Source: Mycolicibacterium phocaicum
Lineage (GTDB): Bacteria; Actinomycetota; Actinomycetes; Mycobacteriales; Mycobacteriaceae
Length of the DNA stretch: 64,000 nucleotides
Direction of reading: 5' to 3'
NCBI RefSeq assembly: GCF_010731115.1
Contig: NZ_AP022616.1
Location: 186,001-250,000, forward strand
Below the pieces are notes generated by a model. The model was not told where the DNA came from, searched no databases, and saw nothing but the letters and a program-made list of their open reading frames with translations. Of the stretch, positions 1 through 7,456 are shown piece by piece (within the stretch, counting starts at the first letter, position 1; every line of letters begins with the position of its first letter). The translations under genes and the position numbers were made by a program.

Positions 1-1830
1 CCGCTGATGCGTTCGGCTGTCTACCGTGCGGCCGATGTGAACCAGCGCCGATCGGTCCACCGGGCGCTGGCCGAGGCCACGGATCCACGGCACGACCCCG
101 ACCGGCGCGTCTGGCATTTCGCCCACGCGGCAGCGGGGCCCGACGACACGGTGGCCGCGGATCTGGAGCGATCCGCCGGACGGGCCCAGCGCAAGGGCGG
201 CGTCGCCGCGGCAGCGGCCTTCCTGGAACGCGCGACGGTGCTGACCGCGGACCCGGCCCTGCGTGCGGCCCGGGCGCTTGCGGCGGCACAGGCCAAACGC
301 GACGCGGCGGCACCGGCGGCGGCGTACGAACTCCTGGCGATCGCCGAACTCGGTCCGCTGACGAAACTGCAACGGGCACAAGTGGATCGGTTGCGGGCCC
401 AGATGCAGTTCGCCCGCAGTCGAGGCGGCGGGCCGGGCGTGCCTCCGCTGAGCGATGCCGTGCAGAAGCTGCTTGCCGCGGCCAGAGATCTCGAGACGCT
501 CGATGACGGACTTGCCCGCGAGACATATCTCGAGGCGCTCGCCGCCGCCATGTACGCCGGGCGGCTGAGCCGGCCCGACACGCTGCCGGAGGTGGCCGCG
601 GCCGCGGCCGCTGCCCTCGGCGATGCGGCGGAGTTGCACCGGCCGGTGGATCTGTTGCTGAGCGGCGTGGCGAGCCGGATCGTCACCGGTGGTGGTACCG
701 AACAGATGCGCACCGCGCTGGAGCTCATCTGCCGGCACGCGCAGGACGCCGACGGGCAATTCCTGCGGTGGATGCCGTTGGGGCTGGCCATCGTTCAGGA
801 ATCGGCCGTCGGCGAGATTTGGGACGACGGCATCCACCGGCTGCTGGCCACCGCCGCGATCCGCCAGGCGCGCGACGCCGGTGCATTGGCCGTGCTTCCG
901 TCCGCACTGGCCTTCGGTGCCGGAGTGCATCTGCTTGCCGGCGAATTCGACACGGCGGCAGCGCTTATCGCCGAGGCCGCCGTGATCTCGGCGGCGACCG
1001 ACTACGCCCCGTTGCGGTACCACTCGCTGTCGCTGGCGGCGTTTCGTGGGGTCGCGGGTGACGCGGTGTCCATCATCGAGTCGGCAGCGGCCGACGCGGC
1101 GGCACGCGGCGAAGGCCGGGTGCTCGGCGTCACGGGGTTTCTTTCGGCTGTGCTCTACAACGGACTCGGGCGCTACGCGGAAGCCTTCGCCGCGGCCAGG
1201 AACTGTTGCGAGTACGACGATCTGGGCTTCTACAGCTGGGGTCTGGTTGAGCTCGCCGAAGCCGCATCACGCATCGGGGACAAGGAAACCGGGGGGTGGG
1301 CCGCGCAGCGGCTGGCTGCTCGTGCGGGTACCAGCGGCACCGACTGGGGGCTGGGTGCACTCGCCTACGTACGTGCCCTGGTTGCGGAGGACGAGGACGC
1401 AGATGCCCTGTACGCCGAGGCCATCGAACGGCTCGGGCGCACCGGTGTCGTCTTCCTCCTGGCCCGGGCTCATCTGTGTTACGGAGAATGGCTGCGCCGC
1501 TTGAATCGTCGCGTGGCAGCGCGGGAGCACCTCGGCACGGCATTCGAGATGTTCAACCGCATGGGGGCCGAGGCGTTCGCGGAGCGGACCCGCCGCGAGC
1601 TGATCGCGGCCGGCAAGAAGGTCCGCAAGGAGCCGGTCAGTTCCGGTGACGAGCTGACGACGCAGGAGGCCCAGATCGCCGAACTTGCCGCCGGCGGTCT
1701 GACCAACCAGGAGATCGGTGCGCAGCTGTTCATCAGCACGCACACCGTGGAATGGCATCTGCGCAAGGTCTTCGTCAAGCTCGGCATCACGTCGCGGCGA
1801 CAGCTGCGCACGCTCTTCCCCTCAAGCTGA
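1..1830 (+). CDS. Large LuxR-family transcriptional regulator, C-terminal part
   Basis: The reading frame is open from the first base, so the gene begins upstream of the window. About 609 residues are visible. Most of it is an alanine-rich helical repeat region of the kind found in MalT/LAL-type regulators. The last ~60 residues form a LuxR HTH, recognisable by TNQEIGAQLFISTHTVEWHLRKVF and the following KLGITSR. In this family an N-terminal ATPase domain is usual; if present here it lies outside the window. The protein should be a cytoplasmic DNA-binding regulator. It ends only 11 nt before a repeated upstream element (1842), so it may regulate the island that follows; that is inference. Ligand unknown. 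Confidence 0.85.
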   Translation, partial: PLMRSAVYRAADVNQRRSVHRALAEATDPRHDPDRRVWHFAHAAAGPDDTVAADLERSAGRAQRKGGVAAAAAFLERATVLTADPALRAARALAAAQAKRDAAAPAAAYELLAIAELGPLTKLQRAQVDRLRAQMQFARSRGGGPGVPPLSDAVQKLLAAARDLETLDDGLARETYLEALAAAMYAGRLSRPDTLPEVAAAAAAALGDAAELHRPVDLLLSGVASRIVTGGGTEQMRTALELICRHAQDADGQFLRWMPLGLAIVQESAVGEIWDDGIHRLLATAAIRQARDAGALAVLPSALAFGAGVHLLAGEFDTAAALIAEAAVISAATDYAPLRYHSLSLAAFRGVAGDAVSIIESAAADAAARGEGRVLGVTGFLSAVLYNGLGRYAEAFAAARNCCEYDDLGFYSWGLVELAEAASRIGDKETGGWAAQRLAARAGTSGTDWGLGALAYVRALVAEDEDADALYAEAIERLGRTGVVFLLARAHLCYGEWLRRLNRRVAAREHLGTAFEMFNRMGAEAFAERTRRELIAAGKKVRKEPVSSGDELTTQEAQIAELAAGGLTNQEIGAQLFISTHTVEWHLRKVFVKLGITSRRQLRTLFPSS

Positions 1831-1841
1831 ACTGGACCACG

Positions 1842-1890
1842 GACCACGAACTTCCAAGGGTCCGCCGCGGTGCGCGATCGGTCATGCTGA
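1842..1890 (+). promoter_or_regulatory. Bipartite conserved upstream element, copy A
   Basis: Left box (GACCACGAACTTCCAAGGGT, then CC) starts at 1842. Right box ATGCTGA starts 42 nt later at 1884. The same two boxes at the same distance recur at 4644 and 5501. Consensus left box is GACYACGRACTTYCAARGGT; right box is AKGCTGR. This copy ends 38 nt upstream of the GTG at 1929. An 11-bp palindrome CCCTTGAAGGG, which may serve as the ribosome-binding region, lies between. It is probably a promoter or operator; the cognate factor is inferred to be the ECF sigma factor at 4745 or the LuxR protein. Confidence 0.6.
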
Positions 1891-1928
1891 GCGCATTCCG
1901 CGAAAACCCTTGAAGGGAAAAGATTTCT

Positions 1929-2837
1929 GTGTCCCGCATCCTGTTGCAGACGACGATCACCGAGTGCGCCGACGATTGGGATGTCAGCCGGTTTTCGATG
2001 TTGGCGGACGAACTGAGGGCGTGTGGTCATCACGTGACCGCACGGAACCGGTCGTGCCTTGCCGACGACCCGGTGCTGAGCCGGCTGGACGCGCTCGATT
2101 TCGACCAGGTGTGGCTGCTGGCGGTCGACGTCGGTAACGGGCTGACGGCGGCCGACGCCGACGGCATCCGGCGGTTTCGCGAGCGCGGTGGTGGCGTACT
2201 CACCGCACGCGATCACCAGGACCTCGGGTGTTGCCTGAACCGCCTCGGATTCCTCGGTGTGGTCAACGAATTCCACGACCCGACCCTCGATCCCGGCGAC
2301 CTGTGCGACGACCAGGACAACCCGGACATCTCCTGGCCCAACTACCACTCCGGAGCCAACGGCGATTATCAGCCGGTGCTGGTCGACGGCGAGCCGCACG
2401 AACTGCTGCGGACGAACCGCACAGCCAGCGGGCACATCGAATGGTTCCCCGCGCATCCGCACGAGGGCCTGGTGTCCGCGAAAGGTCCGCTCGTCCAGGC
2501 TATTGCGACGGGTCGCAGCACCGCGACCGGCCGGCATTTCAATCTTGCCGTCGTGATCGACGGTGAACGGTCGCCGGACGGCCGGCCGATGGGCCGCGCG
2601 ATCGCCGAGTCGACCTTCCATCACTTTGCCGACTACAACTGGGATCTCGCCGCGGGTGCACCGTCGTTCGTGTCCGATGTTCCCGGCACACAGATCAAGG
2701 ACGACCCGTCGCGACTGGCGGTCTTCAAGGACTACATCGCCAATATCGCTGCCTGGCTTCAGCCGCCGGCTGCAGGTACTGCGACGAAGAGTGTCAAACC
2801 GATGATCCGATCTGGATCAAGTGAGGAGCAACAATGA
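1929..2837 (+). CDS. Hypothetical protein, possible class I amidotransferase-like (ThuA-like) fold
   Basis: GTG start after an AAGGGAAAA stretch; 302 residues. No signal peptide or membrane segment is apparent. The alternation of hydrophobic strands (ILLQTTI, QVWLLAVDVG, GGVLTARDH) and the sequence FRERGGGVLTARDHQ resemble the nucleotide-free alpha/beta core of ThuA or class I GATase-like proteins, but I see no certain catalytic triad and do not assign a reaction. The last codons overlap the start of the following SDR gene (ATGA at 2834), so the two are probably co-translated. Expression is likely driven from the bipartite element at 1842. Confidence 0.75.
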   Translation: MSRILLQTTITECADDWDVSRFSMLADELRACGHHVTARNRSCLADDPVLSRLDALDFDQVWLLAVDVGNGLTAADADGIRRFRERGGGVLTARDHQDLGCCLNRLGFLGVVNEFHDPTLDPGDLCDDQDNPDISWPNYHSGANGDYQPVLVDGEPHELLRTNRTASGHIEWFPAHPHEGLVSAKGPLVQAIATGRSTATGRHFNLAVVIDGERSPDGRPMGRAIAESTFHHFADYNWDLAAGAPSFVSDVPGTQIKDDPSRLAVFKDYIANIAAWLQPPAAGTATKSVKPMIRSGSSEEQQ

Positions 2838-3553
2838 CGGAACTGACCGGACTCACCGCGCTCGTGACCGGGGGAACCGCGGGCATCGGGTTCGAGACCG
2901 CGCGGCTGCTGGCCGTCGAAGGCGCTACGGTGATCATCACCGGACGCTCGGCCGCCCGCGGTGCCGCGGCGGCCGCCGAACTCGGGGTGCGGTTCATCGC
3001 CGCCGATCTCGCCGACCTGGAATCCGTGAAATCCCTTGCCCCGCAATGCGGTGACGTCGACATCGTCGTCAACAACGCCGCCAGCTTTCCGGGGGCGCTC
3101 ACCGTGGAGCAGGACGTCGCGTCGTTCGAGTCGACGTTCGACACCAACGTGCGCGGCGCCTACTTCCTGGTGGCGGCACTGGTACCGGGCATGCTGCGCC
3201 GCGGACGCGGGAGCATCGTCAACGTCACCTCCATGGTGGCGTTCAAAGGGGTGCCGGGGGCGTCCAGTTACAGCGCCTCCAGGGCGGCGCTGGAATCGTT
3301 GACCCGCACGTGGGCAACTGAATTCGGGCCGAGCGGGGTTCGCGTCAACAGCGTCGCGCCGGGGCCGACGGCGACGCAGGGTGTGGTGGCCGAGTGGGGT
3401 GACACCAATGATGAACTCGGTCGTGCGCTGCCGCTGGGCCGCACCGCACAGCCGGCAGAGATCGCGCAGGCGGTGCTGTTCCTGGCGTCGCCGCGATCGA
3501 GTTTCATCACCGGCTCGACGTTGCACGCCGACGGCGGCGGCGCGGCGGCCTGA
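2834..3553 (+). CDS. Short-chain dehydrogenase/reductase (SDR)
   Basis: 239 residues, the classical SDR length. The nucleotide-binding motif TGGTAGIG is near residue 12, the NNAA motif near residue 81, and the active-site region SYSASRAALESL near residue 150. The catalytic pattern is therefore Y-S-A-S-R: the usual lysine of YxxxK is arginine, which is unusual and could lower or change activity. The C-terminal LFLASPRSSFITGSTLHADGG is typical of oxidoreductases of the FabG/glucose dehydrogenase type. Its start overlaps the preceding gene by ATGA, and the ribosome-binding block TGAGGAGCAAC is identical to that of the cupin gene at 5589. Substrate unknown. Confidence 0.88.
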   Translation: MTELTGLTALVTGGTAGIGFETARLLAVEGATVIITGRSAARGAAAAAELGVRFIAADLADLESVKSLAPQCGDVDIVVNNAASFPGALTVEQDVASFESTFDTNVRGAYFLVAALVPGMLRRGRGSIVNVTSMVAFKGVPGASSYSASRAALESLTRTWATEFGPSGVRVNSVAPGPTATQGVVAEWGDTNDELGRALPLGRTAQPAEIAQAVLFLASPRSSFITGSTLHADGGGAAA

Positions 3554-3573
3554 ACGCACCGAAGCACGCCGAA

Positions 3574-3606
3574 AACGGCCCCCGGACAACATGTCCGGGG
3601 GCCGTT
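3574..3606. terminator. Bidirectional hairpin terminator
   Basis: Perfect 14-bp stem (AACGGCCCCCGGAC and its complement) with a 5-nt loop AACAT. It lies between the stop codons of two convergent genes (3553 on + and 3621 on -). The stem ends in TT on one side and begins AA on the other, so it can act on both strands. Confidence 0.85.
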
Positions 3607-3620
3607 CTCGTGGTCAGCGG

Positions 3621-4535
3621 TCAGTAGTCCCAGGACGCAGGCACACACCGGAAGGTGTCGCCGGTCGCCGCCACGTGGCACACCGATGGGAACGGCAGGT
3701 GTGTGGCGACCAGGGCCGATCGGGTCGCCGCGACCTCCCGCAGCAGGCCGCCGCGGACGCGGGCCGCTTCCACCGGGTCGTGCTCGAAGCCGTTCTGCCA
3801 CTCGGGGTTGTCGAACCCGGGAGCGAACACGGCATCGCCGGCGAACATCAGCTTCTCGCCGCGGGACTCCAGCCGGACCACACTGTGGCCGGGCGTGTGA
3901 CCGCCGGTGCGGGAGATGAGCACGCCCGGTGCGATTTCGTAGTCCGCCTCGAAAGTCCGCAGTTGGCCACGGTATTCGTTCAGGAACTGCGTAGCAACCC
4001 GCTTCAGCACGTCCGGAATGGGCTGCGGCATGACCGTGCGCGAGAAGTCCGGTGCCTCCCAGAACTCGGCTTCGGCGGTGGCGGCGTGCACCCGCAGATC
4101 GGGCCGCAGCCGGTCCTTGACCCCGTCGGTGATCAGCCCACCGACATGATCCATGTGCATGTGGGTCAGCACGACGTCGGTCACGGACCCGAGGTCGACG
4201 CCGGCAGCCTCGAGGCGATGGATGGTCTGGCCGGCACGGGGGAAGTCCGGGAACTCCAGGCCCAGCCCCGCGTCGACCAGGATGGTCCGGTCCCCGCTCC
4301 GGACGACGACCACGTTCAGCGGCCAGTCGATGATCTCCGGCGGCAGGAAGTTGTCGTTCAACCAGCCCGCCAGGTCGGCCGGAGGGGTGGTGGTGGCCAG
4401 CGTCGATGCGGTGATCGGCAGGACGCCGTCGCTGATCACCAGTACCTCGATGTCGCCGACCTGCACCGCGTAGCGCGACGGCACCAATTCGTCGAGCCCT
4501 GTCTGACCGAGGTGGGAAATGTTGTCCACGCTCAC
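3621..4535 (-). CDS. Metallo-beta-lactamase-fold hydrolase
   Basis: 304 residues from the GTG at 4535, chosen because AGAAGGAG sits just upstream; longer in-frame extensions lack a ribosome-binding site. The metal-binding motif HMHMDH is near residue 125, GGHTPGHS near 213, FAGDAV near 230, and a late histidine in VATHLPFP. This is the dinuclear-metal hydrolase set of glyoxalase II, lactonase and quorum-quenching families. No signal peptide. It is transcribed divergently from the ECF sigma gene, and the intergenic region contains element copy B. Substrate cannot be told from sequence alone; lactone or thioester hydrolysis is plausible. Confidence 0.88.
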   Translation of the reverse strand: MSVDNISHLGQTGLDELVPSRYAVQVGDIEVLVISDGVLPITASTLATTTPPADLAGWLNDNFLPPEIIDWPLNVVVVRSGDRTILVDAGLGLEFPDFPRAGQTIHRLEAAGVDLGSVTDVVLTHMHMDHVGGLITDGVKDRLRPDLRVHAATAEAEFWEAPDFSRTVMPQPIPDVLKRVATQFLNEYRGQLRTFEADYEIAPGVLISRTGGHTPGHSVVRLESRGEKLMFAGDAVFAPGFDNPEWQNGFEHDPVEAARVRGGLLREVAATRSALVATHLPFPSVCHVAATGDTFRCVPASWDY

Positions 4536-4643
4536 GTTGTCTCCTTCTGGTCGTTCGGCAGTGGATTTGCCCCTGCGCAGGGTTGAACGCGCACCGATCA
4601 GCGAAGTCATCCATGCCGTCACACACCACGGATTCATGTTTTC

Positions 4644-4692
4644 GACTACGGACTTTCAAAGGTCTCCTGCGGCCGCCGTGCGACGAGGCTGG
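4644..4692 (+). promoter_or_regulatory. Bipartite conserved upstream element, copy B
   Basis: Left box GACTACGGACTTTCAAAGGT at 4644, right box AGGCTGG at 4686, with the same 42-nt offset as the copies at 1842 and 5501. It precedes the GTG of the ECF sigma gene (4745) by about 50 nt, suggesting autoregulation. The divergent lactamase gene starts at 4535 and could share the region. Confidence 0.6.
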
Positions 4693-4744
4693 ATGCGGCG
4701 GGACGAGATCACCGCCACCGGTTGAGCGAGGGGAGGCTTCGATC

Positions 4745-5308
4745 GTGACGGCAGCGCCGGTGCCGGACTCCGAACTTGCTGCCCGGTTCGTCATCGAGGC
4801 CGTCCCGCTGCTCGACGCTCTGGGCCGCGGTGCCCGCCGGCTGACGCGCTGTGAGGCTGACGCCGAAGATCTGTTGCAGGACACGCTGTTACACGCGTTT
4901 CAGGGCTTCGCGTCGTTCCGCCAGGGCACCAATCTGAACGCGTGGCTCTTCCGAATTCTGCACAACCGGTGGATCAGCAGGCATCGCTATCGGGAAGCTC
5001 GCCCGTCCGAGGTCTCACTCGAGATCATCACCGCCGGTGGCCATGAACCGTCGGCCGTCCGCCGTTCGGCCGAAGCGGAAGTGCTCGACTTCATGCCGGA
5101 CGACGACGTCGAGGCAGCTCTCGCGGAGCTGTCGGAAGGCGCCCGGATGGCGATGTTCTACGTCGGGGTCCAGGGGTACACATTTGCCGAGACCGCCGCA
5201 CTCATGGACGTGCCCATGGGCACCGTCATGTCACGGGTGTCGCGTGGGCGCAGGCAGTTGCGTGTCGCGTTGGCGCACTTGGACCATCAACCCGGTTCGG
5301 CGCGCTAG
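4745..5308 (+). CDS. ECF-type RNA polymerase sigma factor
   Basis: 187 residues from the GTG at 4745, preceded by GGGGAGG; an earlier in-frame ATG would place the conserved upstream element inside the gene. Region 2 is clear (DAEDLLQDTLLHAFQGF, then GTNLNAWLFRILHN), the linker is acidic and variable, and region 4 ends in YTFAETAALMDVPMGTVMSR followed by SRGRRQLR. The region 2 wording resembles the SigH/SigR group. No zinc-binding anti-sigma gene follows, which is unusual for that group. The upstream element it carries is repeated in front of two other local units, so it probably reads its own promoter and theirs; this is inference. Confidence 0.92.
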   Translation: MTAAPVPDSELAARFVIEAVPLLDALGRGARRLTRCEADAEDLLQDTLLHAFQGFASFRQGTNLNAWLFRILHNRWISRHRYREARPSEVSLEIITAGGHEPSAVRRSAEAEVLDFMPDDDVEAALAELSEGARMAMFYVGVQGYTFAETAALMDVPMGTVMSRVSRGRRQLRVALAHLDHQPGSAR

Positions 5309-5365
5309 CCGGCCACCCGCAGGTGCGTGCGGGCGGCGAGTTCCGCGTCGTCGACAGGGGTGAGC

Positions 5366-5494
5366 ATGTCCCAGATCGAGGGATACAGCTACGCCGAGAC
5401 TGCCGCGATTCTGGGGATTCCGCACGGCACCGTCATGTCCCGGGTGTCCCGTGGCAGGCGACGGCTGCGCGTCGCCCTGGCTCACATCTCGTGA
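5366..5494 (+). pseudogene. Orphan sigma-factor region 4.2 fragment (partial duplicate)
   Basis: 42 codons from an ATG (a GTG lies 6 nt earlier). They read IEGYSYAETAAILGIPHGTV, then MSRVSRGRRRLRVALAH, nearly the same as the C-terminal end of the sigma factor just upstream. The fragment is in the same frame as that gene, separated only by its TAG (5306-5308) and 19 sense codons. It lacks regions 2 and 4.1. It is either the relic of a second ECF gene, a partial tandem duplication, or a small free HTH protein. No clear ribosome-binding site is visible. Confidence 0.7.
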
Positions 5495-5500
5495 CCCACC

Positions 5501-5549
5501 GACTACGGACTTCCAAGGGTCCGGCGAAGCAATGTGCAGGGCAGGCTGA
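5501..5549 (+). promoter_or_regulatory. Bipartite conserved upstream element, copy C
   Basis: Left box GACTACGGACTTCCAAGGGT (then CC) at 5501, right box AGGCTGA at 5543. It contains GGAC and GTCC arms around eight bases. It lies 88 nt (box to start) from the cupin gene at 5589, matching the 87 nt of copy A to its gene. Confidence 0.6.
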
Positions 5550-5588: not shown

Positions 5589-5990
5589 ATGTTCGCCACG
5601 TCCGACGACATAGCCAAAGCCATCACGACCATCCAGACCGTCACGCCGCCGTTCATTCCGGCCGACGCGCACGTGATGACGGTGATCATCGAATGGCCGC
5701 CGGGAGGGGTCGGAGCCCCGCCGCACAGGCACCCCGGCGGACCGGCGTTCGGCTATGTGCTGGAGGGGGAGATGCTCTTCGAGCTCGAAGGCGAGGCCCC
5801 ACGAGTGGTCAAGGCCGGGGAGGCGTTCTGGGAGCCCGGGGGCGACGTCATCCACTATTCGGACGGCAACAATCGCGCGGACATCCCGGTGCGCTACCTC
5901 GTCACGATGGTCTGCAACCCGGACATGCCGATGCTCGTGGTCGTCGACGACGACGAGCTCGAAGCCCGCAAGAATCGTCGAGTCCGCTGA
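5589..5990 (+). CDS. Single-domain cupin protein
   Basis: 133 residues with one cupin barrel: GAPPHRHPGGPAFGYVLEGE supplies the first metal-binding motif and KAGEAFWEPGGDVIHY the second. Start ATG after the strong block TGAGGAGCAAC. No signal peptide. Cupins of this size act as small dioxygenases, isomerases or ligand sensors; ChrR-type anti-sigma factors also carry a cupin, but the zinc-binding anti-sigma domain that precedes it in ChrR is absent here. The stop overlaps the start of the nitroreductase (TGATG). It is driven by element copy C and is probably in one operon with the next gene. Confidence 0.85.
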   Translation: MFATSDDIAKAITTIQTVTPPFIPADAHVMTVIIEWPPGGVGAPPHRHPGGPAFGYVLEGEMLFELEGEAPRVVKAGEAFWEPGGDVIHYSDGNNRADIPVRYLVTMVCNPDMPMLVVVDDDELEARKNRRVR

Positions 5991-6649
5991 TGGCCGAGTT
6001 CGGCGACGTCGTCCGGTCGCGGCGGTCGGCGCGGAAGTTCTTGCCGGACAAGGTCGTCCCGCATGAGCTGCTCGAGGAAGCTCTGACGCTGGCAGTACGA
6101 GCGCCGTCGAACTCCAACACCCAACCCTGGCACGTGTTCTTCGCTACGGGTGCGGCACGTGCCCGCCTGTCCGAAGCGCTGCTCGCCGCCGTCGAGTCGA
6201 CGCCTCCGGCGATGGACGCCGCCGGCCTGCCGCAGAGGTTCGCGCACCTGCGCCGAGACAGTGGAGCGCTGGTCTACGGCGCGATGGGAATCACTCGTGA
6301 TGATGCGGAGGGCCGCTGGGCCGCTCGGAGGCGAAACTGGGAGTTCTTCGGCGCCCCGGTTGCCGCAGTGGTGTGCATGCATCGCGATTTCGGGGACGTC
6401 GATGCACTCGGTGTGGGGATGTTCCTGCAGACCCTGCTGCTGGCGCTGGAAGAACGGGGCGTGGGCAGCTGCGTGCAGGTCTCGATTGCGTTGTACCCGG
6501 ACGTGCTGCGCGCACAGTTGGACATCCCCGAGGAACTCACCATCCTGTGCGGGATATCGATCGGCTATGCCGATCCGGGATTCCCGGCGAACAACCTGGA
6601 CATTCCGCGCAATCCACTCAACGAGAACTTCGTATTCCACGACCAATGA
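5990..6649 (+). CDS. Nitroreductase-family flavoprotein
   Basis: 219 residues. The N-terminal VVRSRRSARKFLPDKVVPHE followed by APSNSNTQPWHVFF is the FMN-binding start of the nitroreductase family. The region GVGMFLQTLLLALEERGVGS and a C-terminal SIGYADPGFPANN also match. The expected role is NAD(P)H-dependent reduction of nitro compounds, quinones or enones in the cytoplasm. The start is fixed by the one-base overlap with the cupin stop. Co-transcription with the cupin and the surrounding oxidoreductases suggests detoxification of electrophiles. Confidence 0.88.
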   Translation: MAEFGDVVRSRRSARKFLPDKVVPHELLEEALTLAVRAPSNSNTQPWHVFFATGAARARLSEALLAAVESTPPAMDAAGLPQRFAHLRRDSGALVYGAMGITRDDAEGRWAARRRNWEFFGAPVAAVVCMHRDFGDVDALGVGMFLQTLLLALEERGVGSCVQVSIALYPDVLRAQLDIPEELTILCGISIGYADPGFPANNLDIPRNPLNENFVFHDQ

Positions 6650-6712: not shown

Positions 6713-7456
6713 ATGAAGATCACCGTGATAGGGGCCAGCGGCCAGATCGGCTCGAAGGTCGTCGCGCTGCTGGGCGCCGCCGGCCACGAGACCGTGGCCG
6801 CCTCCCGTGAGTCCGGTGCTGACGTGCTCACCGGAGCGGGCCTTGCCGACGCTCTTGCCGGCACCGATGTACTCGTCGACGTCGTCAACTCACCCGACTT
6901 CTCCGACGGCCCGGTGCTCGACTTCTTCACCAAGTCGGCGACGAACCTGACGACCGCCGCCAAGAACGCGGGCGTCGGCCACTACGTCGCCTTGTCCATC
7001 GTGAACTGCGACGGTCTGCCGGACAGCGGTTACATGCGGGCCAAGGTCGCCCAGGAACGCATCATCACCGGATCGGGGTTGCACTACACCATCGTGCGGG
7101 CCACGCAGTTCCATGAATTCGCCGAGGCGATCACGGCGTCGCTGGTCGTCGACGGCGTCGTGCGCGCGCCGGAAGGCCTCATCCAGCCGATGGCCGGCAA
7201 AGACGTTGCGGCCGAAGTCGCCCGCGCGGCGCAGGCCGCACCGATCGACGGGATCACCAATATCGGCGGACCCGAGAAGATGACCTTCGCCCGACTGGCC
7301 GAGCTGGCCCAGGCGCACAGTGGCAGCACCCTGCCGATCGTGGTCGACCCGGCGGCCGTCTACTTCGGCACGAAGGTCGGCGACACGGGCCTGGTCACCG
7401 GTGCTGACGCCACCATCGCCACGACCCGCCTGCAGGACTGGCTGGCGGAGCACTGA
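6713..7456 (+). CDS. NAD(P)-binding NmrA-like protein
   Basis: 247 residues. The N-terminal ITVIGASGQIGSKVVALLGA is the GxxGxxG Rossmann motif of atypical SDR/NmrA proteins. HYVALSIVNCDGLPDSGYMR followed by AKVAQERIITGSG carries the family pattern around the central strands. It may be a redox-sensing or quinone/NAD(P)H-dependent reductase. Start ATG after GAAAGGG. It lies 63 nt after the nitroreductase on the same strand and is probably the last member of this unit. Confidence 0.85.
   Translation: MKITVIGASGQIGSKVVALLGAAGHETVAASRESGADVLTGAGLADALAGTDVLVDVVNSPDFSDGPVLDFFTKSATNLTTAAKNAGVGHYVALSIVNCDGLPDSGYMRAKVAQERIITGSGLHYTIVRATQFHEFAEAITASLVVDGVVRAPEGLIQPMAGKDVAAEVARAAQAAPIDGITNIGGPEKMTFARLAELAQAHSGSTLPIVVDPAAVYFGTKVGDTGLVTGADATIATTRLQDWLAEH

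Follow-up and report, generated by a model that had tools for sequence, protein, structure and literature searches.

Large ATP-binding regulators of the LuxR family (LAL) have been defined, in the part of the source available, as large proteins with a C-terminal LuxR-type helix-turn-helix that bind an operator and are controlled by a ligand (PMC3282765). For one of the closest described systems, MalT of Actinoplanes sp. SE50/110, the accessible sections place the end of the motif 34.4 +/- 1.0 nt from the start, where it overlaps the -35 region (PMC7567727). For another, TpdR of Rhodococcus jostii TMP1, the inducers are known to be methylpyrazines, according to the available text (PMC6099782). 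A survey of actinobacterial LuxR proteins groups the mycobacterial AAA+ LuxR proteins together, and its available portion gives no binding sites for them (PMC3466318). Our searches for literature on LuxR proteins with mycobacterial target genes, on sigH paralogues and on the letters of the box described below returned no description, most subscription papers lying outside their reach; in the original prediction, too, this motif is not known from any described mycobacterial system.

Here we analyze a stretch of 64,000 nucleotides from Mycolicibacterium phocaicum (contig NZ_AP022616.1, positions 186,001 to 250,000; hereafter the window), in which a bipartite element is repeated upstream of three different gene units. 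We conclude that these are very probably activator-dependent promoters, the left box serving as operator of the adjacent LAL-type LuxR protein in class II activation.

The repeated element in the window and its genome

The window opens within the gene of this regulator, the 3' part of which occupies positions 1..1830; its 5' part extends beyond the window edge, and the whole gene was read at L166:7024-9831. All features given here with coordinates as genes, boxes or hexamers are on the forward strand. The protein comprises 935 aa, the unusually large size typical of LAL proteins. It carries an AAA_16 domain at residues 16-164 (73.1 bits against a cut-off of 32.6), with GEAGVGKT readable in the sequence, and ends in a GerE helix-turn-helix domain at residues 877-928 (53.3 bits against 23.5). 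Its nearest species-named relative in a protein search was from Mycolicibacterium mucogenicum, at 94%.

The left box, GACYACGRACTTYCAARGGT, occurs three times without mismatch in the window (1842..1861, 4644..4663 and 5501..5520), as had been predicted, against an expectation of 0.00 in 100 shuffles, and no further copy was found there at up to three mismatches. Across the whole genome (5,853,197 bases) only one match was added to these, with three mismatches and without an A at offset 42 or 43. The right box, AKGCTGR, takes the forms ATGCTGA at 1884, AGGCTGG at 4686 and AGGCTGA at 5543, its start following that of the left box by 42 nt in all three copies; it reads better as the -10 hexamers CATGCT (1883..1888), GAGGCT (4685..4690) and CAGGCT (5542..5547). 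The corresponding predicted transcription starts, near 1895, 4697 and 5554, would give leaders of 34, 48 and 35 nt. A chance or mobile repeat was considered and rejected, since the copies share the promoter parts alone and precede different genes.

The first copy, the proposed LuxR operator directly 3' of the regulator gene, precedes a gene for a 302-aa protein (1929..2837) followed by a short-chain dehydrogenase (SDR) gene (2834..3553). The second precedes a SigH-like ECF sigma gene (4745..5308), identified by family scan and comparison with SigH. The third precedes a cupin gene (5589..5990) and a nitroreductase gene (5990..6649), so that the three distinct downstream units of the original prediction are as described. 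The gene that follows, for an NmrA-like NAD(P)-binding protein (6713..7456), might be guessed from its 63-nt gap to belong to the third unit. The 302-aa protein had no Pfam or NCBIfam match in the family scan; it was aligned with 13 relatives, a PDB profile search found no match up to E 1, and a structure model reached a mean pLDDT of only 39.7 and was set aside.

Some further features of the sequence were observed. A strong inverted repeat at 3570-3610 (19 nt, 95% complementary, 3-nt loop), where the SDR and MBL genes converge, is probably a bidirectional terminator. Partial copies of the first half of the box (GACYACG or CTACGGACT) lie directly 5' of several boxes, at L010, L012, L016, L030 and, in the window, at 1834-1841; possibly they reflect slippage or a second half-site. 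A possible likeness between GGACTTTC and the DosR box was also considered.

Conservation and promoter geometry of the element

Matches to the box at up to three mismatches were present in 247 of 297 genomes of the same genus, many of them by chance, as a reversed-pattern control indicated. A refined pattern allowing no mismatch (RACYACGRNNNNYCMRGGGT; hereafter strict), which covers offsets 0-19 only, gave 307 matches in 181 of the 297 genomes, as compared with 120 matches for the reversed control; the genomes being related, counts across them are not independent. Around matches among those of the 307 that were listed, 120 regions were taken, and with the window these make up the 121 regions examined below; as they were chosen around box matches, the target tallies they yield are not a census. 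From the matches listed, 23 were left out, 16 as resembling coding sequence (for example GACTACGAGCTGTCCGGGGT) and 7 others. One of the 16, G037:C2:675926, lies 41 nt 3' of a LuxR gene and is probably genuine, which indicates that the coding-like filter lost true sites. Beyond the genus, an exact scan for GACYACGGACTTTCMRGGGT in one genome from each of 84,980 species returned 71 stretches, all from records mycobacterial by name except one metagenome-assembled genome labelled only Actinomycetota (L222).

Drawn from the matches listed, the 121 regions hold 129 strict boxes; 75 of these share their region with a LuxR homologue, and 42 with a sigma homologue. For 111 of the boxes, 109 of them unique, a gene homologous to one in the window starts 20-320 nt further 3'. 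Among the 109, ANNNT occurs at offset 42 (83 boxes) or 43 (25 boxes) in all except one (L073), positions lying outside the offsets 0-19 by which the boxes were selected, and at any other offset from 24 to 79 it is found in 0 to 8 boxes. The element is thus conserved genus-wide, the point that the search of related genomes proposed with the original prediction was to check. In 23 boxes from the matches listed, homology of the next gene starts within 75 nt, and in every one of these short-leader genes a start codon lies 7-9 nt past the T of ANNNT; 20 were found by script, in frame, at 7, 8 or 9 nt, and the other three (L066, L106 and L110), where the script itself offered TTG at 4 nt for two and nothing for the third, show, when read by eye, ATG or GTG in frame at a distance of 7 nt. 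This is the distance at which a transcription start is expected, and ANNNT therefore fits a -10 element; judged by this spacing, the start codons of the short-leader genes should coincide with the predicted transcription starts, making these transcripts leaderless.

With the start so placed from the leaderless genes, ANNNT lies at -6 to -13, as in SigA-type promoters, in 108 of the 109 boxes from the matches listed. In M. smegmatis, the available part of the report finds ANNNT at these positions in 79% of mapped promoters, of which 63% have a preceding T and the remainder are weaker, and counts about one quarter of transcripts as leaderless (PMC6448022). The base preceding ANNNT in our 108 boxes, again among the matches listed, is C in 64, G in 35, A in 9 and T in none, so that the bare promoter should be weak. 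The left box then falls at about -53 to -32 of the predicted start; it forms an imperfect dyad with its centre at offset 10, scoring 2.38 against 1.40 for the next best, and direct repeats within it score no higher than the dyad. Both the offset of ANNNT and the start-codon geometry bear out the view that boxes at fixed spacing resemble a promoter, and the three upstream sequences of the window look like real promoters.

Candidate readers of the box

The regulator and the box are distributed together. A LuxR match was counted as strong when full-length with E below 1e-250, and as absent when there was no match at E 1e-100. The strict box was present in 145 of 152 strong-LuxR genomes (reversed control 48 of 152), in 12 of 33 with a weaker match (control 14 of 33) and in 24 of 112 without LuxR; the control figure for the last group, 38 of 112, places its 24 genomes at background. 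Of the seven strong-LuxR genomes lacking a strict box, six have variant boxes, all with ANNNT at 42 or 43, five of them bearing GACTACGGACTTTCAAGGGC adjoining LuxR and one more diverged (L275); the matrix threshold used, 14, gave no match in 1.4 Mb of shuffled loci. The full element accompanies the strict box in 5 of the 12 weak-LuxR genomes and in 2 of the 24 LuxR-less ones, G013 and G295, the latter looking like coding sequence. Of the 30 LuxR loci that matched best, 23 have a box within 1.5 kb, and the genomes of the other seven have a strict box elsewhere; the LuxR gene has a box at most 2.6 kb downstream in 75 of 87 cases examined. Unlinked copies are found in many genomes, and the regulon is not a local one as the original prediction had it.

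These observations favor the second option of the original prediction, that the upstream LuxR protein may bind the boxes, and it is on co-occurrence with LuxR that we propose the left box as its operator. The GerE helix, HTVEWHLRKVF, is identical in all but one of the 75 box-near LuxR proteins, whereas the whole proteins are about 50-92% identical to that of the window. The same helix is found in 11 of the 12 LuxR proteins without a box within 2.6 kb, so that its conservation reveals constraint and not box specificity. Outside the genus the picture is mixed: L304 and L306 have RTV in place of HTV and L299 has nearly the same helix; no box was found within 1.5 kb in these three.

That another regulator reads the box, luxR being a mere neighbour carried along with the regulon, we regard as improbable. 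Such a reading could draw on the so far predicted nature of LuxR binding, on the convincing full element before a cupin gene in G013, a draft 96% complete in which no LuxR was found even at E 1e-20, and on G019, where LuxR is present and no box was seen in the 14 kb read around it (L273). Against these single cases stand the almost one-to-one association of LuxR and box over 297 genomes, maintained also when they are unlinked, and a geometry that matches LAL activators. It is quite unlikely that LuxR binds the box and represses, blocking RNA polymerase at -35 until a signal arrives: a box overlapping -35 is compatible with both activation and repression, but the -10 lacks the consensus T in front of ANNNT in all 108 boxes (matches listed), so that the bare promoter should be weak, and the LAL cases MalT and TpdR are both described as activators in the available portions of their reports (PMC7567727, PMC6099782).

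The sigma factor encoded at 4745-5308 is a paralogue of SigH: it matches mycobacterial SigH (PDB 5zx2) at E 1.7e-49, its region 4 is close to that of SigH, including TVMSR.xRGRRQLR, and it scores 166.8 bits in NCBIfam TIGR02947 (SigH), below the cut-off of 251.55. No anti-sigma family was found among the neighbouring genes scanned. SigH-like matches, counted at E 1e-30, occur in 288 of the 297 genomes. In 31 strong-LuxR genomes there is a single such match, presumably the canonical SigH, and the box is present in all 31 (27 strict, 4 variant), showing that this sigma factor is not needed. Conversely, the 92 genomes with a best sigma match of at least 183 bits all have LuxR (90 strong, 2 weak), so the sigma is nested inside the LuxR distribution and the reverse fails. 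Among the matches listed, 87 of 129 strict boxes have no sigma homologue in the region (121 regions, mostly about 7 kb each side). The presence of the box, therefore, does not depend on the sigma gene as under ECF-sigma autoregulation, and the expectation that this sigma reads its own regulon is not supported; the locus sigma, related to mycobacterial SigH, is most likely a target of the box and not its reader, and its gene is an optional member of the regulon. It is extremely unlikely that this sigma recognizes the two boxes as a -35 and a -10 of its own. The idea could appeal to the box found ahead of its gene both here and in relatives (30 of 109, matches listed); but the 21-22 nt from left-box end to -10 are too long for a sigma spacer, and the boxes are unlike the SigH promoter that its SigH-like region 4 would lead one to expect.

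Between the intact sigma gene and box 3, a 42-aa open frame (5366-5494) matches sigma region 4 only (Pfam Sigma70_r4_2); it is 69% identical to the end of the neighbouring sigma and 80% to that of the sigma in L158, is identical in the close relative L269, and is what is left of another, distinct sigma gene. Two sigH copies have been reported in M. mucogenicum, the available part of that report making no mention of LuxR (PMC6917791).

The proposed regulon and its relation to known systems

In the favored reading, that of activation by LuxR, a left box of 20-22 nt (consensus GACYACGGACTTTCAAGGGTTC), an imperfect dyad near -43, would be the LuxR operator, and the right box a weak SigA-type -10 (VANNNT). 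Once its signal is sensed, LuxR would occupy the stretch from about -53 to -32, covering the -35, and recruit RNA polymerase, switching on genes for NmrA-like, SDR, nitroreductase, cupin, metallo-hydrolase and 302-aa proteins, presumably of redox or detoxification type; in part of the genus the SigH-like ECF sigma would be switched on as well and relay the signal. Among the 109 targets from the matches listed, NmrA homologues are commonest (46), followed by sigma (30), nitroreductase (11), the 302-aa protein (8), SDR (7), cupin (4) and MBL (3). The role of this set can only be guessed from its protein families, which suggest that it deals with organic compounds that are foreign or reactive.

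The membership of the cluster varies. In the close relatives L146 (G223), L270 and L271, orthologous clusters have four strict or scored boxes, and additional MBL, nitroreductase or cupin genes are linked to boxes there; box-linked modules are thus gained and lost between near species. The remaining 18 of the 129 strict boxes, among the matches listed, have no window-gene homologue within 320 nt; 8 of these have ANNNT at 42/43, with the next open frame at offset 53 or 54 in 7 (L076, L097, L107, L109, L134 twice and L162), and the other 10 look like chance matches. At L076:7054 a box is followed after 53 nt, again with leaderless geometry, by the ATG of a gene whose 171-aa product resembles, by eye, an ECF sigma of a different kind. 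In L107, L109, L134, L097 and L162, further possible targets start at offset 54; judged by eye, their products resemble an AhpD-type peroxidase, an alpha/beta hydrolase and an MmpS-like protein.

More tentatively, and with rather less than even confidence, these elements could be viewed as a widespread, unevenly kept regulon in which an ATP-binding sensor of an organic signal acts through one conserved operator to turn on redox enzymes in varying combinations, some from leaderless mRNAs, and has recruited ECF sigmas (SigH-like, and a second kind in L076) in part of the genus. The analysis offers a putative operator, target set and predicted starts for a large mycobacterial regulator that roughly half of the 297 genomes encode; the proposed link from an ATP-binding sensor to the gene of an ECF sigma lends itself to direct testing.

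From the perspective of described systems, this is a new regulon of an already known kind. TpdR, as far as the available text describes it, is a LAL activator of a promoter for degradation genes, and its repeat (-51 to -37) overlaps the -35 region, as the left box does here; but the site proposed for it, TnnAAnnGCGGAnTC, is a direct repeat of 15 nt and serves a single operon (PMC6099782). The MalT motif, TCATCC-5 nt-GGATGA, is unrelated to the present box and controls other genes in another bacterial family; nevertheless, in the accessible sections of its description, MalT is a LuxR-family activator encoded inside its region and acting through one dyad before many genes, as proposed here, at a distance of 34.4 +/- 1.0 nt that closely parallels the 34-35 nt to the predicted start in our promoters (PMC7567727).
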